In this document: positions 1-14,514 of the stretch, piece by piece
Layout: every line of letters begins with the position of its first letter
How positions within the stretch are numbered: the first letter of the stretch is position 1
Assembly: GCA_031290255.1 (NCBI GenBank)
Contig: JAITNW010000016.1
Location: 1 to 41,784, forward strand
DNA from: Candidatus Nomurabacteria bacterium
Lineage (GTDB): Bacteria > Patescibacteriota > Saccharimonadia > Saccharimonadales > Saccharimonadaceae
Direction of reading: 5' to 3'
Length of the DNA: 41,784 nucleotides
Notes under the pieces: model-generated
Seen by the model: only the letters and a program-made list of their open reading frames with translations
What the model was told of the DNA's origin: nothing
Databases searched by the model: none
Program-made: the position numbers and the translations under genes

Positions 1-107
1 GCGGCGGTTCCGTGGTCGGCGACGTCTACTCGGGCGGCGGCCGGCTCAGGTTTGACCGGGGCGACGGCTGGGCGCTCGTCGACGTTGGTGTCGGTTTCTC
101 GGTGGGG
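1..107 (+). repeat. DGR variable repeat (VR), left end cut by window
   Basis: These 107 bases align without gaps to 392-498. There are twelve mismatches, at 34, 43, 57, 60, 61, 69, 75, 76, 79, 84, 85 and 105. In all twelve the other copy carries A, while this copy carries G (6), C (2) or T (4). Six template adenines are unchanged and no non-adenine position differs. The last stretch before the copies diverge has no adenine in this copy and is where an initiation-of-mutagenic-homing element would be expected. Its 5' limit is not visible. Confidence 0.93.
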
Positions 108-116
108 GAAAATTAG
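1..116 (+). CDS. 3' end of a DGR target gene (C-type-lectin/FISUMP-like C-terminus), partial
   Basis: The reading frame enters from the left edge (codons from base 3) and ends with TAG at 114-116, giving 37 visible residues that finish in GVGFSVGEN. The 'GFSV' ending resembles the GFSVRC/GFAVRC terminus of FISUMP-type lectin-like proteins, which are often secreted or surface exposed. Bases 1-107 form the variable repeat of a diversity-generating retroelement: compared with 392-498, every difference is at a template adenine. Relative to the template the encoded protein has eight residue changes, including N to G, N to L, N to V, D to V and R to W, while the invariant frame residues are kept. 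A terminator hairpin follows 55 bases downstream. The N-terminal part and any binding specificity lie outside the window. Confidence 0.85.
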   Translation, partial: GGSVVGDVYSGGGRLRFDRGDGWALVDVGVGFSVGEN

Positions 117-170
117 GACTAAATCCTTTTCAGTCCTTTCCTTCCCTTTCCTTCCTCAAAGTAGTACAAT

Positions 171-217
171 AAAGCGCAGTTTGCACGGCACATTAGCCTC
201 ACGAACTGCGCTTTTTT
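171..217 (+). terminator. Hairpin terminator after the DGR target gene
   Basis: Bases 171-183 pair with 202-214 (13 pairs, one G-T) around an 18-base loop. The T-run at 212-217 makes this a good intrinsic terminator for the plus-strand target gene that stops at 116. DGRs often carry a hairpin or cruciform just downstream of the VR that aids homing. This one is about 60 bases beyond the VR end, so terminator is the simpler reading. Confidence 0.75.
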
Positions 218-391
218 CTTTTCCGAAAATCCGCCGAGTTCCACAGGTGTACCATCAAACCAGATTTCTTCAAAAATCACCCCACGTGGGTCTAGCGTAA
301 ATTAGCGAACAATCTGTGCCTCGCGAGGCATAGGGTCACTCTGTTGTGACGGGTGGATTCTCGACGCGCCAGACGACAAAAGTCCTTCCCG
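218..391 (+). other. Non-coding interval between VR gene and template repeat, with two small inverted repeats
   Basis: I see no convincing gene here. A perfect 14-base palindrome (TGCCTCGCGAGGCA, 317-330) is followed at once by a 5-bp hairpin (335-339 with 346-350, loop 340-345). The interval directly precedes the template repeat and is probably the 5' portion of the template RNA; the hairpins may be part of its fold. No clear promoter was recognised. Confidence 0.45.
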
Positions 392-498
392 GCGGCGGTT
401 CCGTGGTCGGCGACGTCTACTCGGACGGCGGCCAGCTCAGGTTTGACAGGAACGACGGCAGGGCGAACGACGACAATGGTGTCGGTTTCTCGGTGAGG
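392..498 (+). ncRNA. DGR template repeat (TR) / template RNA region
   Basis: This is the adenine-rich copy of the VR at 1-107. It contains AAC codons (451-453, 466-468) and an AAT codon (475-477), typical of DGR templates because mutated A positions in AAY codons reach many amino acids without making stops. Of the 18 adenines in the aligned block, 12 are replaced in the VR. The open frame running through it (346-543) lacks a good ribosome site and is best read as a transcribed, untranslated template. Homology ends at 498, four bases before the stop codon of the convergent Avd-like gene. Confidence 0.92.
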
Positions 499-9268: not shown

Positions 9269-9805
9269 TTATTTCTTCCCTGCCTTTCCGGCCTTACGAA
9301 TAATAACCTCATCAGCATATTTAATACCTTTGCCCTTGTATGGTTCTGGCTTCCTCAGGCTGCGAATCTCCGCAGCAGTCTGACCGACTTTTTGCTTGTC
9401 AATGCCGCTAACGGTGATTTCCATTTTGTCGGTTTTTAATTCGACTCCTTCTGAAGCAGCATATTTGACTGGATGGCTATAACCAAGCGACATCTCAATT
9501 TGCTTTCCGCCACCTGAAAGCCTAAAACCAACACCGTTGATTTCTAGCTTCTTCTCAAAGCCTTTCGTTACTCCGATTACGGCGTTATTTAGTAACGACC
9601 GCTGCAGACCATGCCAAGCCTTAGACTCTGGCATGTCATCTTTGCGGGTAACAATAATTTTGTTGTCTTCTACTACTGTAGTAGTATTCTGTTGGACAGG
9701 AACCTGGAGAGTGCCTTTCGGGCCAGCAACGGTGATTTCCGTGTTGCCGACCGTAATTGTCACGCCCGCGGGAATGTCCACAGGTAGTTTTCCGATACGA
9801 CTCAT
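9269..9805 (-). CDS. rplF: 50S ribosomal protein uL6
   Basis: 178 residues with the MSRIGKLPVDIPAGV start, two tandem uL6 folds and the PEPYKGKGIKY signature near the C-terminus. It lies near the sarcin-ricin loop in the 50S subunit. It is the first gene after its own promoter (9833-9862) and so begins a separate uL6-uL18-uS5-uL15 unit, although readthrough from the upstream gene is possible. Confidence 0.97.
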   Translation of the reverse strand: MSRIGKLPVDIPAGVTITVGNTEITVAGPKGTLQVPVQQNTTTVVEDNKIIVTRKDDMPESKAWHGLQRSLLNNAVIGVTKGFEKKLEINGVGFRLSGGGKQIEMSLGYSHPVKYAASEGVELKTDKMEITVSGIDKQKVGQTAAEIRSLRKPEPYKGKGIKYADEVIIRKAGKAGKK

Positions 9806-9832
9806 ATTATTCCTTTTTTAATAATCCCTAGT

Positions 9833-9862
9833 ATTATATCATATCTGATCGGGTTAATGCAA
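9833..9862 (-). promoter_or_regulatory. Promoter of the uL6-uL15 unit
   Basis: Extended -10 TGATATAAT (box at 9833-9838), an 18-base spacer and a -35 TTGCAT (9857-9862), in the 60-base gap between the phosphoribosyltransferase-like gene and uL6. Confidence 0.8.
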
Positions 9863-9865
9863 GAA

Positions 9866-10501
9866 TTAATGCCAGTAATTAGCTATATTCTGCGCCATAG
9901 CCAAACGCTCCTCCTCCGTATATGTATCCTGTTCCTCAAAATAATGGTCATCATCAAAAATATCTGCAGGCAGGACGTCGATATAAGTAGCACCTTGAGT
10001 CTCAAGATATAGTTTTGTAGACATTTCGGACATAATATTACCCGCTGCCCCCTCAATGTGTGCTGGGCTCAGCGGTTTAAGCAAGGCCTTCGCAATCGCC
10101 ATACCCATTTCGTCACGAAAAATATCATCAGTCAGCAGTATATTGCGCCCATTGATAAAAGTCCGATCAATCGAATTGATCTGTTTACTACGATTTAATA
10201 TGCTCATGGCCTCACGTTTCTTTTCCTCAATATGACTACTGAACTCGGAATAGATATATTCATACTCGGTTGGAGATATTTCTGGATTTAACACGAAATT
10301 ACCCGTCTCTATCAACGCACCCAATATTCGCCCTCTAGCATATGGATCGCTAATCGGCTCGTAGTAAATCACGAAAATCCACGTATGAAGCACGGTTGCC
10401 ATCTCGATACACGCCGCAAGCGCATTCTTATCTAGACACACAATAATAGAATCGTTATTGCGAAAAGCATCTATCCTTTCGGCAAGCTGATCCCCGAGCA
10501 C
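9866..10501 (-). CDS. Phosphoribosyltransferase-like protein inserted in the ribosomal cluster
   Basis: 211 residues from a GTG at 10501. The layout resembles stand-alone type-I phosphoribosyltransferases: LAERIDAFRNNDSIIVCL near the start, a VLNP segment (~93-96), a helical EEKKREAM stretch, and GRNILLTDDIFRDEMGM at the position of the PRPP-binding loop. The two Asp of TDD are kept, but the Gly/Thr part of the loop is RDEMGM, so catalysis is uncertain. Upstream in frame lies YFLNRR, which fits the family N-terminus; the only start that would include it is ATT at 10520-10522, four bases after GGAGG. The gene sits between uS8 and uL6, an unusual place. Substrate unknown. Confidence 0.7.
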   Translation of the reverse strand: MLGDQLAERIDAFRNNDSIIVCLDKNALAACIEMATVLHTWIFVIYYEPISDPYARGRILGALIETGNFVLNPEISPTEYEYIYSEFSSHIEEKKREAMSILNRSKQINSIDRTFINGRNILLTDDIFRDEMGMAIAKALLKPLSPAHIEGAAGNIMSEMSTKLYLETQGATYIDVLPADIFDDDHYFEEQDTYTEEERLAMAQNIANYWH

Positions 10502-10540
10502 CCGTCGATTTAAGAAATAAATAATGCCTCCATTCCACTT

Positions 10541-10569
10541 ATTCTAACATAAAAATAGCCCCATGATGA
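10541..10569 (-). promoter_or_regulatory. Weak promoter for the phosphoribosyltransferase-like gene
   Basis: Extended -10 TGTTAGAAT (box at 10541-10546) directly after the uS8 terminator T-run. The -35 region TCATCA (10564-10569), 17 bases upstream, lies inside the terminator loop and is poor. Confidence 0.4.
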
Positions 10570-10579
10570 GGCTATTTTT
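10551..10579 (-). terminator. Terminator after uS8
   Basis: A 10-bp stem AAAAATAGCC/GGCTATTTTT (10551-10560 with 10570-10579) around a 9-base loop, 14 bases beyond the uS8 stop codon. It is AT-symmetric and so could work in both directions. It ends the uL3-uS8 transcript. Confidence 0.8.
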
Positions 10580-10592
10580 CTTTGCTCGTAGT

Positions 10593-10994
10593 TTAATATA
10601 CTTTGATAAGTATTTCGCCACCAAGCTTTGCTTTTAATGCTTCCTGGCCAGTCATAATCCCTTTTGAAGTAGAAATCAAGACTGTTCCGCGCCCAGATTT
10701 CACCTTTGGAATCTCGGTTGCGCCTGTATAGACGCGTCGACCCGGCGTTGAGACCTTTGTGATCTCATTAACGCGGGCCAGTTTACCCTCTTTGCAAATT
10801 ACTACATGAAGAATATCACGCGGTTTTGCCTCTTCAAGCTCCACTTTCTCGACATAATTGATCTTCTGCAATTTCTCCGCCACCGCAAATTTTAGCTTGC
10901 TGGTAGGGACACGAATTTCGGTTTTACCGACAGCGATTGCATTACGAATTCTCGTGATCAAATCTGCTACGGCATCTGTTGATTGTATAGACAT
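10593..10994 (-). CDS. rpsH: 30S ribosomal protein uS8
   Basis: 133 residues. It opens with TDAVADLITRIRNAI and closes with the signature segment STSKGIMTGQEALKAKLGGEILIKVY. It is a primary 16S rRNA-binding protein. It is the last gene of the uL3 operon and is followed by a strong hairpin. In E. coli uS8 represses the spc operon by binding near uL5; whether that holds here cannot be judged. Confidence 0.97.
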   Translation of the reverse strand: MSIQSTDAVADLITRIRNAIAVGKTEIRVPTSKLKFAVAEKLQKINYVEKVELEEAKPRDILHVVICKEGKLARVNEITKVSTPGRRVYTGATEIPKVKSGRGTVLISTSKGIMTGQEALKAKLGGEILIKVY

Positions 10995-11010
10995 ATTTTC
11001 TCCTTTCTCC

Positions 11011-11280
11011 TTACCAACTACTCTTTGTTACGCCAGGGATTTCGCCCTTGCTTGCTTTTTCACGGAAGCTAATACGGGATAGCCCGAAACGACGCATATA
11101 GCCACGAGGTCGCCCATCCAGCATATCGCGATTCTTTAGTCTTGTAGGACTAGAGTTTCGCGGTAGCTTTTGTAAGCCTTCAAGGTCGCCAGTTGCTTTC
11201 ATCTCGGCGCGCTTCTGCTGATATTTGTCGTGCATTTTTTGCCGCTTTTGATCACGGAGTACAGCGCTAGTTTTTGCCAT
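11011..11280 (-). CDS. rpsN: 30S ribosomal protein uS14, zinc-free long form
   Basis: 89 residues starting [11 protein letters not shown] at 11280, one base after the uL5 stop; a longer frame would overlap uL5. It is the long, cysteine-free type (no CxxC...CxxC), ending with the conserved [34 protein letters not shown] block. Together with the cysteine-free bL36, it means these two usual zinc-binding positions are zinc independent here. Confidence 0.97.
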
Positions 11281-11281
11281 A

Positions 11282-11854
11282 TTATTTAGCCTCCTTCTCG
11301 AACGGCATGCCAAATTGTTCTAACAACTTAAGGCTCCCTTCTTTTGAACCATTCTTAATTACAAATGTTATCTCAATACCGTGTAGAACCTGCGCGTCCT
11401 CAAAGCTAATTTCCGGAAATACAGTTTGTTCTTTCAGCCCGATATTGTAATTACCCTGCGCATCAAAAGATTTTCTAGATACGCCATGAAAGTCTCGCAC
11501 ATGGGGCAATGCAATATTGATCAAGCGGTCAGCAAATTCATACATTTTGTCATTGCGCAAAGTAGTGAGGTAACCAACTGGCGCACCCATTGCCTTGCGA
11601 ATCTTAAACTGAGCAATCGACTTCTTGGCTAGGCGCGAAATAGTCATCTGACCAGTAATCTTGTTGATCGTAAGACCTACGGTTTCGGTGTAGCGCTTAT
11701 CGTCACGCTTCTTACCCACACCAGAGGCCACGATAATCTTTTCGAGCTTCGGTACTTGGTTGATATTCCCAAGGCTAAGTTCTTTCTTTAGGTTCTTTGT
11801 AATCTCTTTATTGTAGAGAGTTTTGAGTCTTGGTTCGTATTTTACAGTAGACAT
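11282..11854 (-). CDS. rplE: 50S ribosomal protein uL5
   Basis: 190 residues with the [34 protein letters not shown] and [12 protein letters not shown] blocks of the family. It binds 5S rRNA and contacts P-site tRNA in the central protuberance. It overlaps uL24 by one base. Confidence 0.98.
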
Positions 11855-12174: not shown

Positions 12175-12542
12175 TATAGTACCTCCGGCGCAAGGCTGAT
12201 AATTTTGCTAAAACCAAGTTCACGCAGTTCGCGAGGCACTGGCCCAAAGACGCGTGTCCCTCTCGGAGTCTTGTCTTCGTTTACCAGCACCGCAGCATTG
12301 TCATCAAAACAAATCGTGCTTCCGTCTGGACGGCGAATCTGATCACGCGTACGGACTACGACCGCTCGCACCACGGCCTTCTTCTTTACACCGCCAGTAG
12401 GCGACGCTTCTTTTACGCTACAAGTGACGATATCGCCAACCCGAGCGTAGCGAGCGCGAGTACCACCAAGCACCGAGATCACTCCGAGCTCCTTGGCGCC
12501 ACTATTATCGGCTACTTTTAGTTTACTTTCTTTTTGAATCAT
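12174..12542 (-). CDS. rplN: 50S ribosomal protein uL14
   Basis: 122 residues, the standard length. [35 protein letters not shown] and [24 protein letters not shown] are all typical. It forms an intersubunit bridge and the binding site of factors such as RsfS. Confidence 0.98.
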
Positions 12543-12543
12543 A

Positions 12544-12855
12544 TTACTTTTTCCCCTCCTCGTCTTTTCTTTTAGCGACTACTTCTACTACGTCTTCCTT
12601 CAGCTCCACCTTGCCATGAGAACGTTCGAGAATTTTTACCAATCTGTAGGTTTTGCTACGAGAAATCGGGCGAGTTTCAATAATTTCTACCTGGTCGCCC
12701 TCGTTAGCTTCGTTTTTCTCGTCGTGTGCTGCATATTTGCGCGTGACGGTAAATTGCTTCTTGTAAATTGGGTGCGTCTCACGAGAGGTGATTAAAACCG
12801 TAATTGTCTTATCTCGCTTATCGGAGGACACTACCCCAGTCAGTGTATGTGCCAT
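12544..12855 (-). CDS. rpsQ: 30S ribosomal protein uS17
   Basis: 103 residues. The OB-fold core ([24 protein letters not shown]-type motif here [21 protein letters not shown], and the [13 protein letters not shown] end) is followed by a ~20-residue charged tail. It is a primary 16S rRNA binder. It overlaps uL29 by one base. Confidence 0.97.
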
Positions 12856-13061
12856 TACTTATCTCCTTTCGTGGCGTTAATTTTTGTCAAAATTCGGGCA
12901 ATATCTTTCTTAATTACGCCGATACGGTGAGGATTCTGCAAAGTACTACCTAGACCCTGTTGAGCGACCAAAAGCTCTGCCTGCTTCTTGACTAACTGCT
13001 CAGGAAGCGGCAAATTGCTCACTACCTTTGCTTCTTTGACTTCTTTTTTCTTATCAGCCAT
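12855..13061 (-). CDS. rpmC: 50S ribosomal protein uL29
   Basis: 68 residues forming two helices, with the conserved [17 protein letters not shown] segment. It sits at the tunnel exit, next to uL23, where chaperones and the signal recognition particle dock. A charged N-terminal extension of ~15 residues precedes the usual start of the fold. Confidence 0.95.
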
Positions 13062-13062
13062 A

Positions 13063-13482
13063 TTATAGTTCCTCTTTCTTTATGATCCGCGTGCGCACTG
13101 GTAACTTATGAGAAGCCAGCCTTAGCGCTTCTTTTGCCTGCTCGTCAGTCACATCAGAAATCTCAAACAATACCGTGCCGGCTTTTACCTTGGCAACATG
13201 GAATTGTGGCTCACCTTTACCGCCACCCATCTTTACGTCAAGTGGTTTCTTAGTAACTGGGATATGCGGGAATACCCGAATCCAAATCCTACCACCACGC
13301 TTCACGTAGCGCGTAATTGCTTGACGCGCAGCTTCTATCTGGCGGCTATTAATACGCTCATTATCTAGACTGAGTAGCCCCCACTCGCCGAAATCTACAG
13401 AGTTGCAACGCGTAGCGACACCACCATTCTTGCCCTTGCGGACTTTGCGGTGTGCTTCTTTTCGCGGTTGAGTAAGTGCCAT
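13063..13482 (-). CDS. rplP: 50S ribosomal protein uL16
   Basis: 139 residues. Conserved parts are the basic N-terminus, GEWGLLSLDNERINSRQIEAAR, WIRVFPHIPVTKKPLDVKMGGGKGEP and FEISDV. It lines the A-site tRNA corridor in the 50S subunit. One base separates it from uS3 and from uL29. Confidence 0.98.
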   Translation of the reverse strand: MALTQPRKEAHRKVRKGKNGGVATRCNSVDFGEWGLLSLDNERINSRQIEAARQAITRYVKRGGRIWIRVFPHIPVTKKPLDVKMGGGKGEPQFHVAKVKAGTVLFEISDVTDEQAKEALRLASHKLPVRTRIIKKEEL

Positions 13483-13483
13483 A

Positions 13484-14110
13484 TTATTTCTCCCCCTTAT
13501 AAACCCAGACCTTTACGCCCACGATACCGGCAATCGTCTTAGCATGGTGTACGTGGAAATCCACATCAGCACGCAAAGTATGTAGCGGCACTGAACCTTC
13601 GATAAATTTCTCACGGCGGGACATTTCTGCGCCATTCAGACGACCAGAAACCTCTACGCGAATACCTTTAGCGCCAGCATTCATCGTAGAAGCCGAAGCC
13701 ATCTTGACTGCGCGACGAAAATTCATTCGCTTGCCGAGCTGGAAACCGATATTTTCGGCGGCCAATTTAGCATTTAACTCTGGCTTCTTCACCTCTTCCA
13801 CATTGATGCGGACCGGGCTATCGGTAATCTTTTCAAGTTGCCTCTTAAGCTCGTTGATGCCAGAACCCTGCTTACCAATCACTGCACCAGCCTTCGCTGT
13901 TTTAATAGTGATAGTGGCAAGATTCGGGCTTCGCTCGACATCCACTTTCGCAATCGTTGGGCGGCTCTTGAACCGCTCTTCGATGATCTCACGCATCTTG
14001 ATATCCTCAATCAGCCACTTTTTGAAGTCGGCCTTTCGTGAGAACCATTTGCTGCTCCAGTTCTTGGAGATCTGCAAACGATAACTAATGGGGTTAACTT
14101 TTTGTCCCAT
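13484..14110 (-). CDS. rpsC: 30S ribosomal protein uS3
   Basis: 208 residues. It has an N-terminal KH domain with GAVIGKQGSGINELKRQLEK and a C-terminal domain with GKRMNFRRAVKMA, GAKGIRVEVSGRLNGAEMSRREKF and GTVPLHTLRAD-type (here GSVPLHTLRADVDF) motifs. It forms the mRNA entry-tunnel wall. It overlaps uL22 by one base. Confidence 0.98.
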   Translation of the reverse strand: MGQKVNPISYRLQISKNWSSKWFSRKADFKKWLIEDIKMREIIEERFKSRPTIAKVDVERSPNLATITIKTAKAGAVIGKQGSGINELKRQLEKITDSPVRINVEEVKKPELNAKLAAENIGFQLGKRMNFRRAVKMASASTMNAGAKGIRVEVSGRLNGAEMSRREKFIEGSVPLHTLRADVDFHVHHAKTIAGIVGVKVWVYKGEK

Positions 14111-14514
14111 TACTTTTTCTCCTTCTTTTCTTCTGCCTTCGATTCTGATTTCGGAGCAGCTTTTTTAACTTTCTCTTCGCCAACGACCTCGACAAAGATA
14201 TTTGAACTAACTTTTTCAAATGGCAACGCGCGCCCACGACTTGCCGGAACATATCGGCGAATCCTAGTACCCGCCGTCACCGAGATCCGACCAATCGCAA
14301 TTGTTTTCGTATCAATGCTGCCACTGTTTAGCAGGTTTGCCTTGGCAGACTCAATCGCCTTTTTGACCGCTAACGCAGAGCGTCTCGGAGTGTTATCCAG
14401 AATGACCAATGCATCTGCTACGTAACGATCGCGAATCAAGCTAGCCACAATACTCACCTTGCGTGGCTGGCTATCGACGCCCTTGATATAGGCATGCGCA
14501 GTTTTAGTACTCAT
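14110..14514 (-). CDS. rplV: 50S ribosomal protein uL22
   Basis: 134 residues from the ATG at 14514 (MSTKTAHAYIK), one base after the uS19 stop; a longer frame would overlap uS19. The family hairpin that reaches into the peptide tunnel is visible as RISVTAGTRIRRYVPASRGRA. A Lys/Glu tail of ~20 residues ends the protein. The usual signature is slightly diverged but the fold is clear. Confidence 0.96.
   Translation of the reverse strand: MSTKTAHAYIKGVDSQPRKVSIVASLIRDRYVADALVILDNTPRRSALAVKKAIESAKANLLNSGSIDTKTIAIGRISVTAGTRIRRYVPASRGRALPFEKVSSNIFVEVVGEEKVKKAAPKSESKAEEKKEKK

Follow-up and report, generated by a model that had tools for sequence, protein, structure and literature searches.

The window analysed here, 41,784 nucleotides of contig JAITNW010000016.1, opens with two copies of a 107-base repeat, at positions 1-107 and 392-498, which align without gaps. 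All 12 mismatches between them fall at adenines of the second copy; only 18 of its 107 positions are A, and none of the 89 non-A positions differs (hypergeometric P = 7.5e-12). These counts reproduce exactly those of an earlier note on this DNA, and the eight residue changes that it reported in the target C-terminus recur in the target frame. Because every difference lies at an adenine of the second copy, we assign 392-498 as the template repeat (TR) and 1-107 as the variable repeat (VR1). VR1 forms the 3′ end of a target gene on the plus strand (1-116, with the stop codon TAG at 114-116), in frame with the C-terminus of an intact homologue encoded across two other contigs; the gene is incomplete in the window, as the contig begins within it. 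The TR, also on the plus strand, spans 379-498, homology to a third copy of the repeat placing its left boundary 13 nt further out than the core. Adenines in 392-498 occupy codon positions 1 and 2 only, never position 3, and no codon of this segment is able to mutate to a stop. At repeat position 105 (A496 of the window), the TR reads GTGAGG and VR1 GTGGGG, an A-to-G change that recurs in both variable repeats of this genome and in those relatives for which a base-by-base comparison was made. A fixed IMH*/IMH difference is thus a better reading of this recurrent change than random mutation, and the random adenine substitutions in VR1 then number 11. By analogy with BPP-1, the 3′ end of the TR (484-498, plus strand) would function as the IMH* region.

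Behind the target gene, the plus strand carries a strong hairpin followed by a run of T (171-214; -23.9 kcal/mol, z = -6.1). The hairpin is terminator-like, similar ones occur in the related genomes G030 and G102, and it may also serve as a target-side stem-loop like that of BPP-1. What kind of protein is being diversified? The target protein has no Pfam match and no sequence match in the PDB, and a structure model of a relative's target protein, with a mean pLDDT of 45, is too low in confidence for judging a C-type lectin fold, so that the lectin-like C-terminus proposed in the earlier note is not demonstrated. Protein searches of genome contigs, viral contigs and phages with the target gene returned no relatives; the target genes of the complete systems described below are only 20-39% identical where compared.

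Between the hairpin and the TR lies a putative structured leader RNA (280-382, plus strand), consisting of the motif CCCCACGTG, a closing stem P1 (291-297 paired with 367-373) and an inner hairpin P3 (313-334). In the alignment of leaders, the motif CCYCACGTG precedes helix P1; the second arm of the helix reaches almost to the TR, closing 0-17 nt upstream of it. Across seven sequences, 98% of P1 cells are paired, with compensatory changes at all seven pairs; none of 500 shuffles scored as well for pairing and covariation, and sliding the pairing partner reduced pairing to 29-47%. A set of six sequences that excludes the window pairs at 100% over P1 and P3, with compensatory changes at 11 of 12 pairs. 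In a set of 18 leaders, the P1 arms of one sequence pair better with each other than with arms swapped in from another (0 of 20,000 permutations; 14 and 0 of 20,000 when each layout group is taken separately); the signal in a shifted control was weaker (36 of 20,000). The window's own leader keeps six of seven P1 pairs, one being broken, and its P3 is displaced in the alignment. Folding of single sequences yields weak z-scores, and the structural claim therefore rests on covariation only.

We built a covariance model, R1, from our own alignment chosen around the TR, leaving the window out; it has a single match in the window, at 280-382 (E = 2.5e-6). R1 was also run on three overlapping samples (295, 393 and 380 genomes), and all of its matches there fell in genomes with this type of DGR. 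Three of the matches were new from the search (G107, G059 and G073), each lying beside a TR, Avd and reverse transcriptase (RT); a fourth, on contig C18 of G030, follows a second target gene whose TR is truncated. Rfam contains no such leader family among the sequences searched, and its one match in the window is a sub-threshold microRNA hit on the hairpin. Elsewhere in the relatives, Rfam identifies a lysM-TM7 RNA (in one relative) and a tRNA.

The TR is followed by a convergent, intact avd open reading frame encoding 112 amino acids on the minus strand (503-841), its stop codon lying 4 nt behind the TR; in systems of the window's type, avd lies within 4-57 nt behind the TR, in the opposite direction. 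The assignment is based on matches to phrog_3206, "Avd protein of DGR" (E = 6.9e-9), and to NCBIfam DivGenRetAVD (E = 2.1e-9) and Pfam bAvd (E = 6.7e-6), the latter two below curated cut-offs, and on 57-63% identity to the Avd of three complete relatives. Beyond avd, an open reading frame at 903-1370 encodes an OmpR-type regulator, and the genes after it read as ribosomal-protein genes, which together argue for a chromosomal context. A search for avd in phages found none and so lends no support to a prophage origin. Matches in IMG/VR above 40% identity numbered two, both on one contig, and were not taken as viral evidence.

The window's genome (G000; 697,830 bases in 16 contigs, 94% complete) was searched for further copies of the repeat. 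A third copy, VR2, occupies positions 628-734 of contig C12; five of its six differences from the TR are at A, the single exception being T8C. The gene that VR2 terminates starts at position 82719 of contig C10, and joining C10 and C12, which overlap by exactly 119 nt within the target gene, as in k-mer contigs, yields a protein of 267 amino acids. VR1 and VR2 share about 121 nt of downstream sequence, and the strong hairpin within it is identical behind VR2. Further downstream (C12:853-877, L010) lies a 25-nt remnant of the TR 3′ end, identical at 20 of 25 positions, which indicates that the second copy probably once had a TR of its own; duplication of the target-TR unit followed by loss of the second TR is the probable history. 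There is no RT beside this second target gene on C10 and C12. A similar arrangement is seen at G030:C18 (L128), where leader RNA and then a truncated TR come after a second target gene. To the observations of the earlier note, the present analysis adds the avd gene, the leader RNA and the third repeat copy.

Relatives of the window's system were reached through homologues of the target gene and Avd in the same taxonomic family and order. Four genomes contain complete DGRs in the order RT, target gene, TR and convergent avd, with differences between TR and VR concentrated at adenines (22 of 23 in G088, 20 of 22 in G102, 20 of 23 in G003 and 22 of 25 in G411). Complete relatives are found on Saccharibacteria MAG contigs (CALLZM010000002.1, DISN01000020.1, PKXF01000011.1 and WQTP01000019.1) and on a contig labelled Nomurabacteria (JAISBI010000017.1). 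They share with the window the layout, the Avd family, the leader RNA and the adenine-biased differences, but differ from it in the presence of an RT. These enzymes, referred to here as the clade RT, are of the DGR type, with an IGNLTSQ motif and RT 8ub7 as the best match among solved structures (E = 1e-33). The earlier note's reading of the repeats as a DGR pair is borne out by the adenine-biased differences in two VRs, the adjoining avd homologue and the complete, RT-bearing systems of these relatives, and its suggestion of a CPR-type genome is supported, the lineage being Saccharibacteria (TM7).

Where, then, is the RT? The clade RT is not in the window's bin, even though the latter is 94% complete; its best match there is the RT of another DGR, on contig C1 (E = 2e-53, about 30% identical). 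The window's contig ends before the position at which the relatives carry the RT, and no RT follows the window's avd, which fits a layout with the RT upstream. In G009 and G030, the contig with avd and TR breaks directly behind the target gene, at the same place as in the window, and another contig has the clade RT and, after it, the target gene at its end. The simplest explanation for the missing RT is thus that the assembly broke at the hypervariable repeat, and the cognate enzyme is expected just to the left of the window. The earlier note had also proposed looking for an RT on this side: synteny with the relatives supports that expectation, but the RT is not in this bin.

We therefore favor a reading, to which we assign a probability of about 90%, in which positions 1-841 are the right-hand part of a chromosomal Saccharibacterium DGR, with the contig edge cutting the target gene and the RT lying to the left. 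A TR, two VRs, avd and leader RNA are present in the window's genome, and the full layout is seen in the relatives. From these sequences we infer that the cell also possesses the RT and that the system is presumably still active.

It is conceivable, though improbable, that the locus is instead a decayed DGR, which lost its RT and left VR1 and VR2 as fixed fossils of past diversification. The absence of the clade RT from the bin would agree with such a history, and the truncated remnant at C12:853-877 (20 of 25 positions) demonstrates that parts of the cassette do decay. Against it, the avd reading frame is intact and 57-63% identical to homologues that stand beside an RT, the TR at 392-498 is still devoid of stop-capable codons, leader P1 keeps six of seven pairs, and TR and VR1 are the same over the full 107 nt, adenine differences aside.

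Marginally less probable still is a cassette that lost its cognate RT and is served in trans, its TR being copied by the enzyme of another DGR. The bin does encode two further DGR-type RTs with TRs and VRs of their own. A second, canonical DGR (L007, C1:9303-14386) comprises an RT (12513-13640, minus strand), a bAvd gene (13624-14067, minus strand), a TR (14175-14386) and a target gene (9303-11534) with a VR at 9308-9460, in which 9 of 12 differences are at A. A third (L008, C15:3-2492) has its RT at 1308-2492, a TR at 970-1156 that is encoded on the other strand and, upstream of the RT, an open reading frame of 300 amino acids without a family. Its VRs are remote, at C6:12-198 (14 of 14 differences at A), C16:10378-10564 (16 of 16) and C2:767-953 (22 of 29), and this RT thus evidently serves distant targets. 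Yet identity to the clade RT is only about 30% for both enzymes, a search of regions on C1 and C15 found no R1 leader, and a close relative of the window's Avd accompanies the clade RT in the genomes checked for both. Moreover, contigs missing at the VR are a recurrent artefact of this DGR type. An ordinary duplication, gene conversion or assembly artefact without any DGR is refuted: the contig does begin exactly in the repeat, and assemblers break at repeats, but the adenine exclusivity (P of about 7e-12) is repeated in VR2 and the relatives, avd adjoins the repeat, and RT-bearing DGRs are syntenic.

For the favored chromosomal DGR, we propose the following model. The full order would be RT, target gene with VR1, terminator hairpin, leader RNA, TR and convergent avd, the RT gene just left of the window having been lost from the bin by an assembly break inside the hypervariable VR. 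A plus-strand RNA containing leader and TR would be reverse transcribed by the dedicated RT together with Avd; TR adenines would be miscopied, and the cDNA would take the place of the target gene's 3′ end as far as the IMH. The second chromosomal target gene, on C10 and C12, would be written in VR2 from the same TR. The leader most likely acts as a docking site for RT and Avd, as a stop signal terminating the cDNA at the 5′ boundary of the TR, or as both.

How does this organization relate to that of the Bordetella phage? BPP-1 and the window's type have Avd, TR, VR, adenine mutagenesis, IMH/IMH* and a hairpin behind the target in common, and also an RT, which for the window's type is seen in the relatives only (PMC12875486, PMC3240598). 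In BPP-1, the TR RNA is flanked by the avd coding sequence on the 5′ side and by a structured spacer (sp) on the 3′ side, before the RT gene; the 3′ spacer recruits RT-Avd and primes the cDNA, and a motif in avd stops it (PMC12875486). The window's avd, in contrast, is convergent and lies 3′ of the TR, and structured RNA is found as a covarying leader on the 5′ side; synonymous conservation, which is not raised at the 3′ end of avd, gives no sign of an antisense-avd 3′ spacer. In addition, the window's hairpin, about 64 nt behind the VR, is farther from it than the BPP-1 stem-loop. We tentatively speculate, at somewhat less than even odds, that the template RNA is reversed relative to the Bordetella model, with a protein-binding, boundary-setting structure 5′ of the TR and a convergent avd in place of the 3′ spacer. 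If so, the way in which the cDNA is primed and terminated would depart from the known mechanism.

DGRs of Patescibacteria/CPR are known as "DGR clade 2" from Roux et al. 2021, and the TR/VR pair of the window is a further case of the known patescibacterial DGRs (PMC8144416). The clade 2 systems, as described there, and the window's system are both cell-encoded in Patescibacteria and have targets without a recognizable conserved domain, a likeness that does not amount to a phylogenetic placement of the window's system; the method used in that study was blind to targets lying far from the RT, such as that of VR2. The searched passages of the paper make no mention of a TR leader RNA (PMC8144416). 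The papers searched contain no description of the leader RNA or of the convergent-avd layout, which provisionally look like an undescribed variant.

What is the relevance of such a variant? As far as we found, Patescibacteria DGRs are mechanistically unstudied, and the covarying leader offers a testable handle on how their RTs recognize and bound the template. With the leader covariance model, TRs could also be located in assemblies broken at a VR, and remote targets assigned. In the window's genome, of about 0.7 Mb, three DGR template systems are accompanied by six or more variable repeats, which is a striking investment at such a reduced size.

The arrangement of the components varies beyond the close relatives. 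Other lineages have the order target, TR, avd (reverse) and RT, with avd and RT divergent and TR and avd still convergent. At seven loci (L081, L082, L087, L090, L094, L096 and L098), the divergent avd and RT genes mostly overlap or abut at their starts, target and TR lie on the avd side, and both the convergence of TR and avd and a P1-like helix on the 5′ side are kept.
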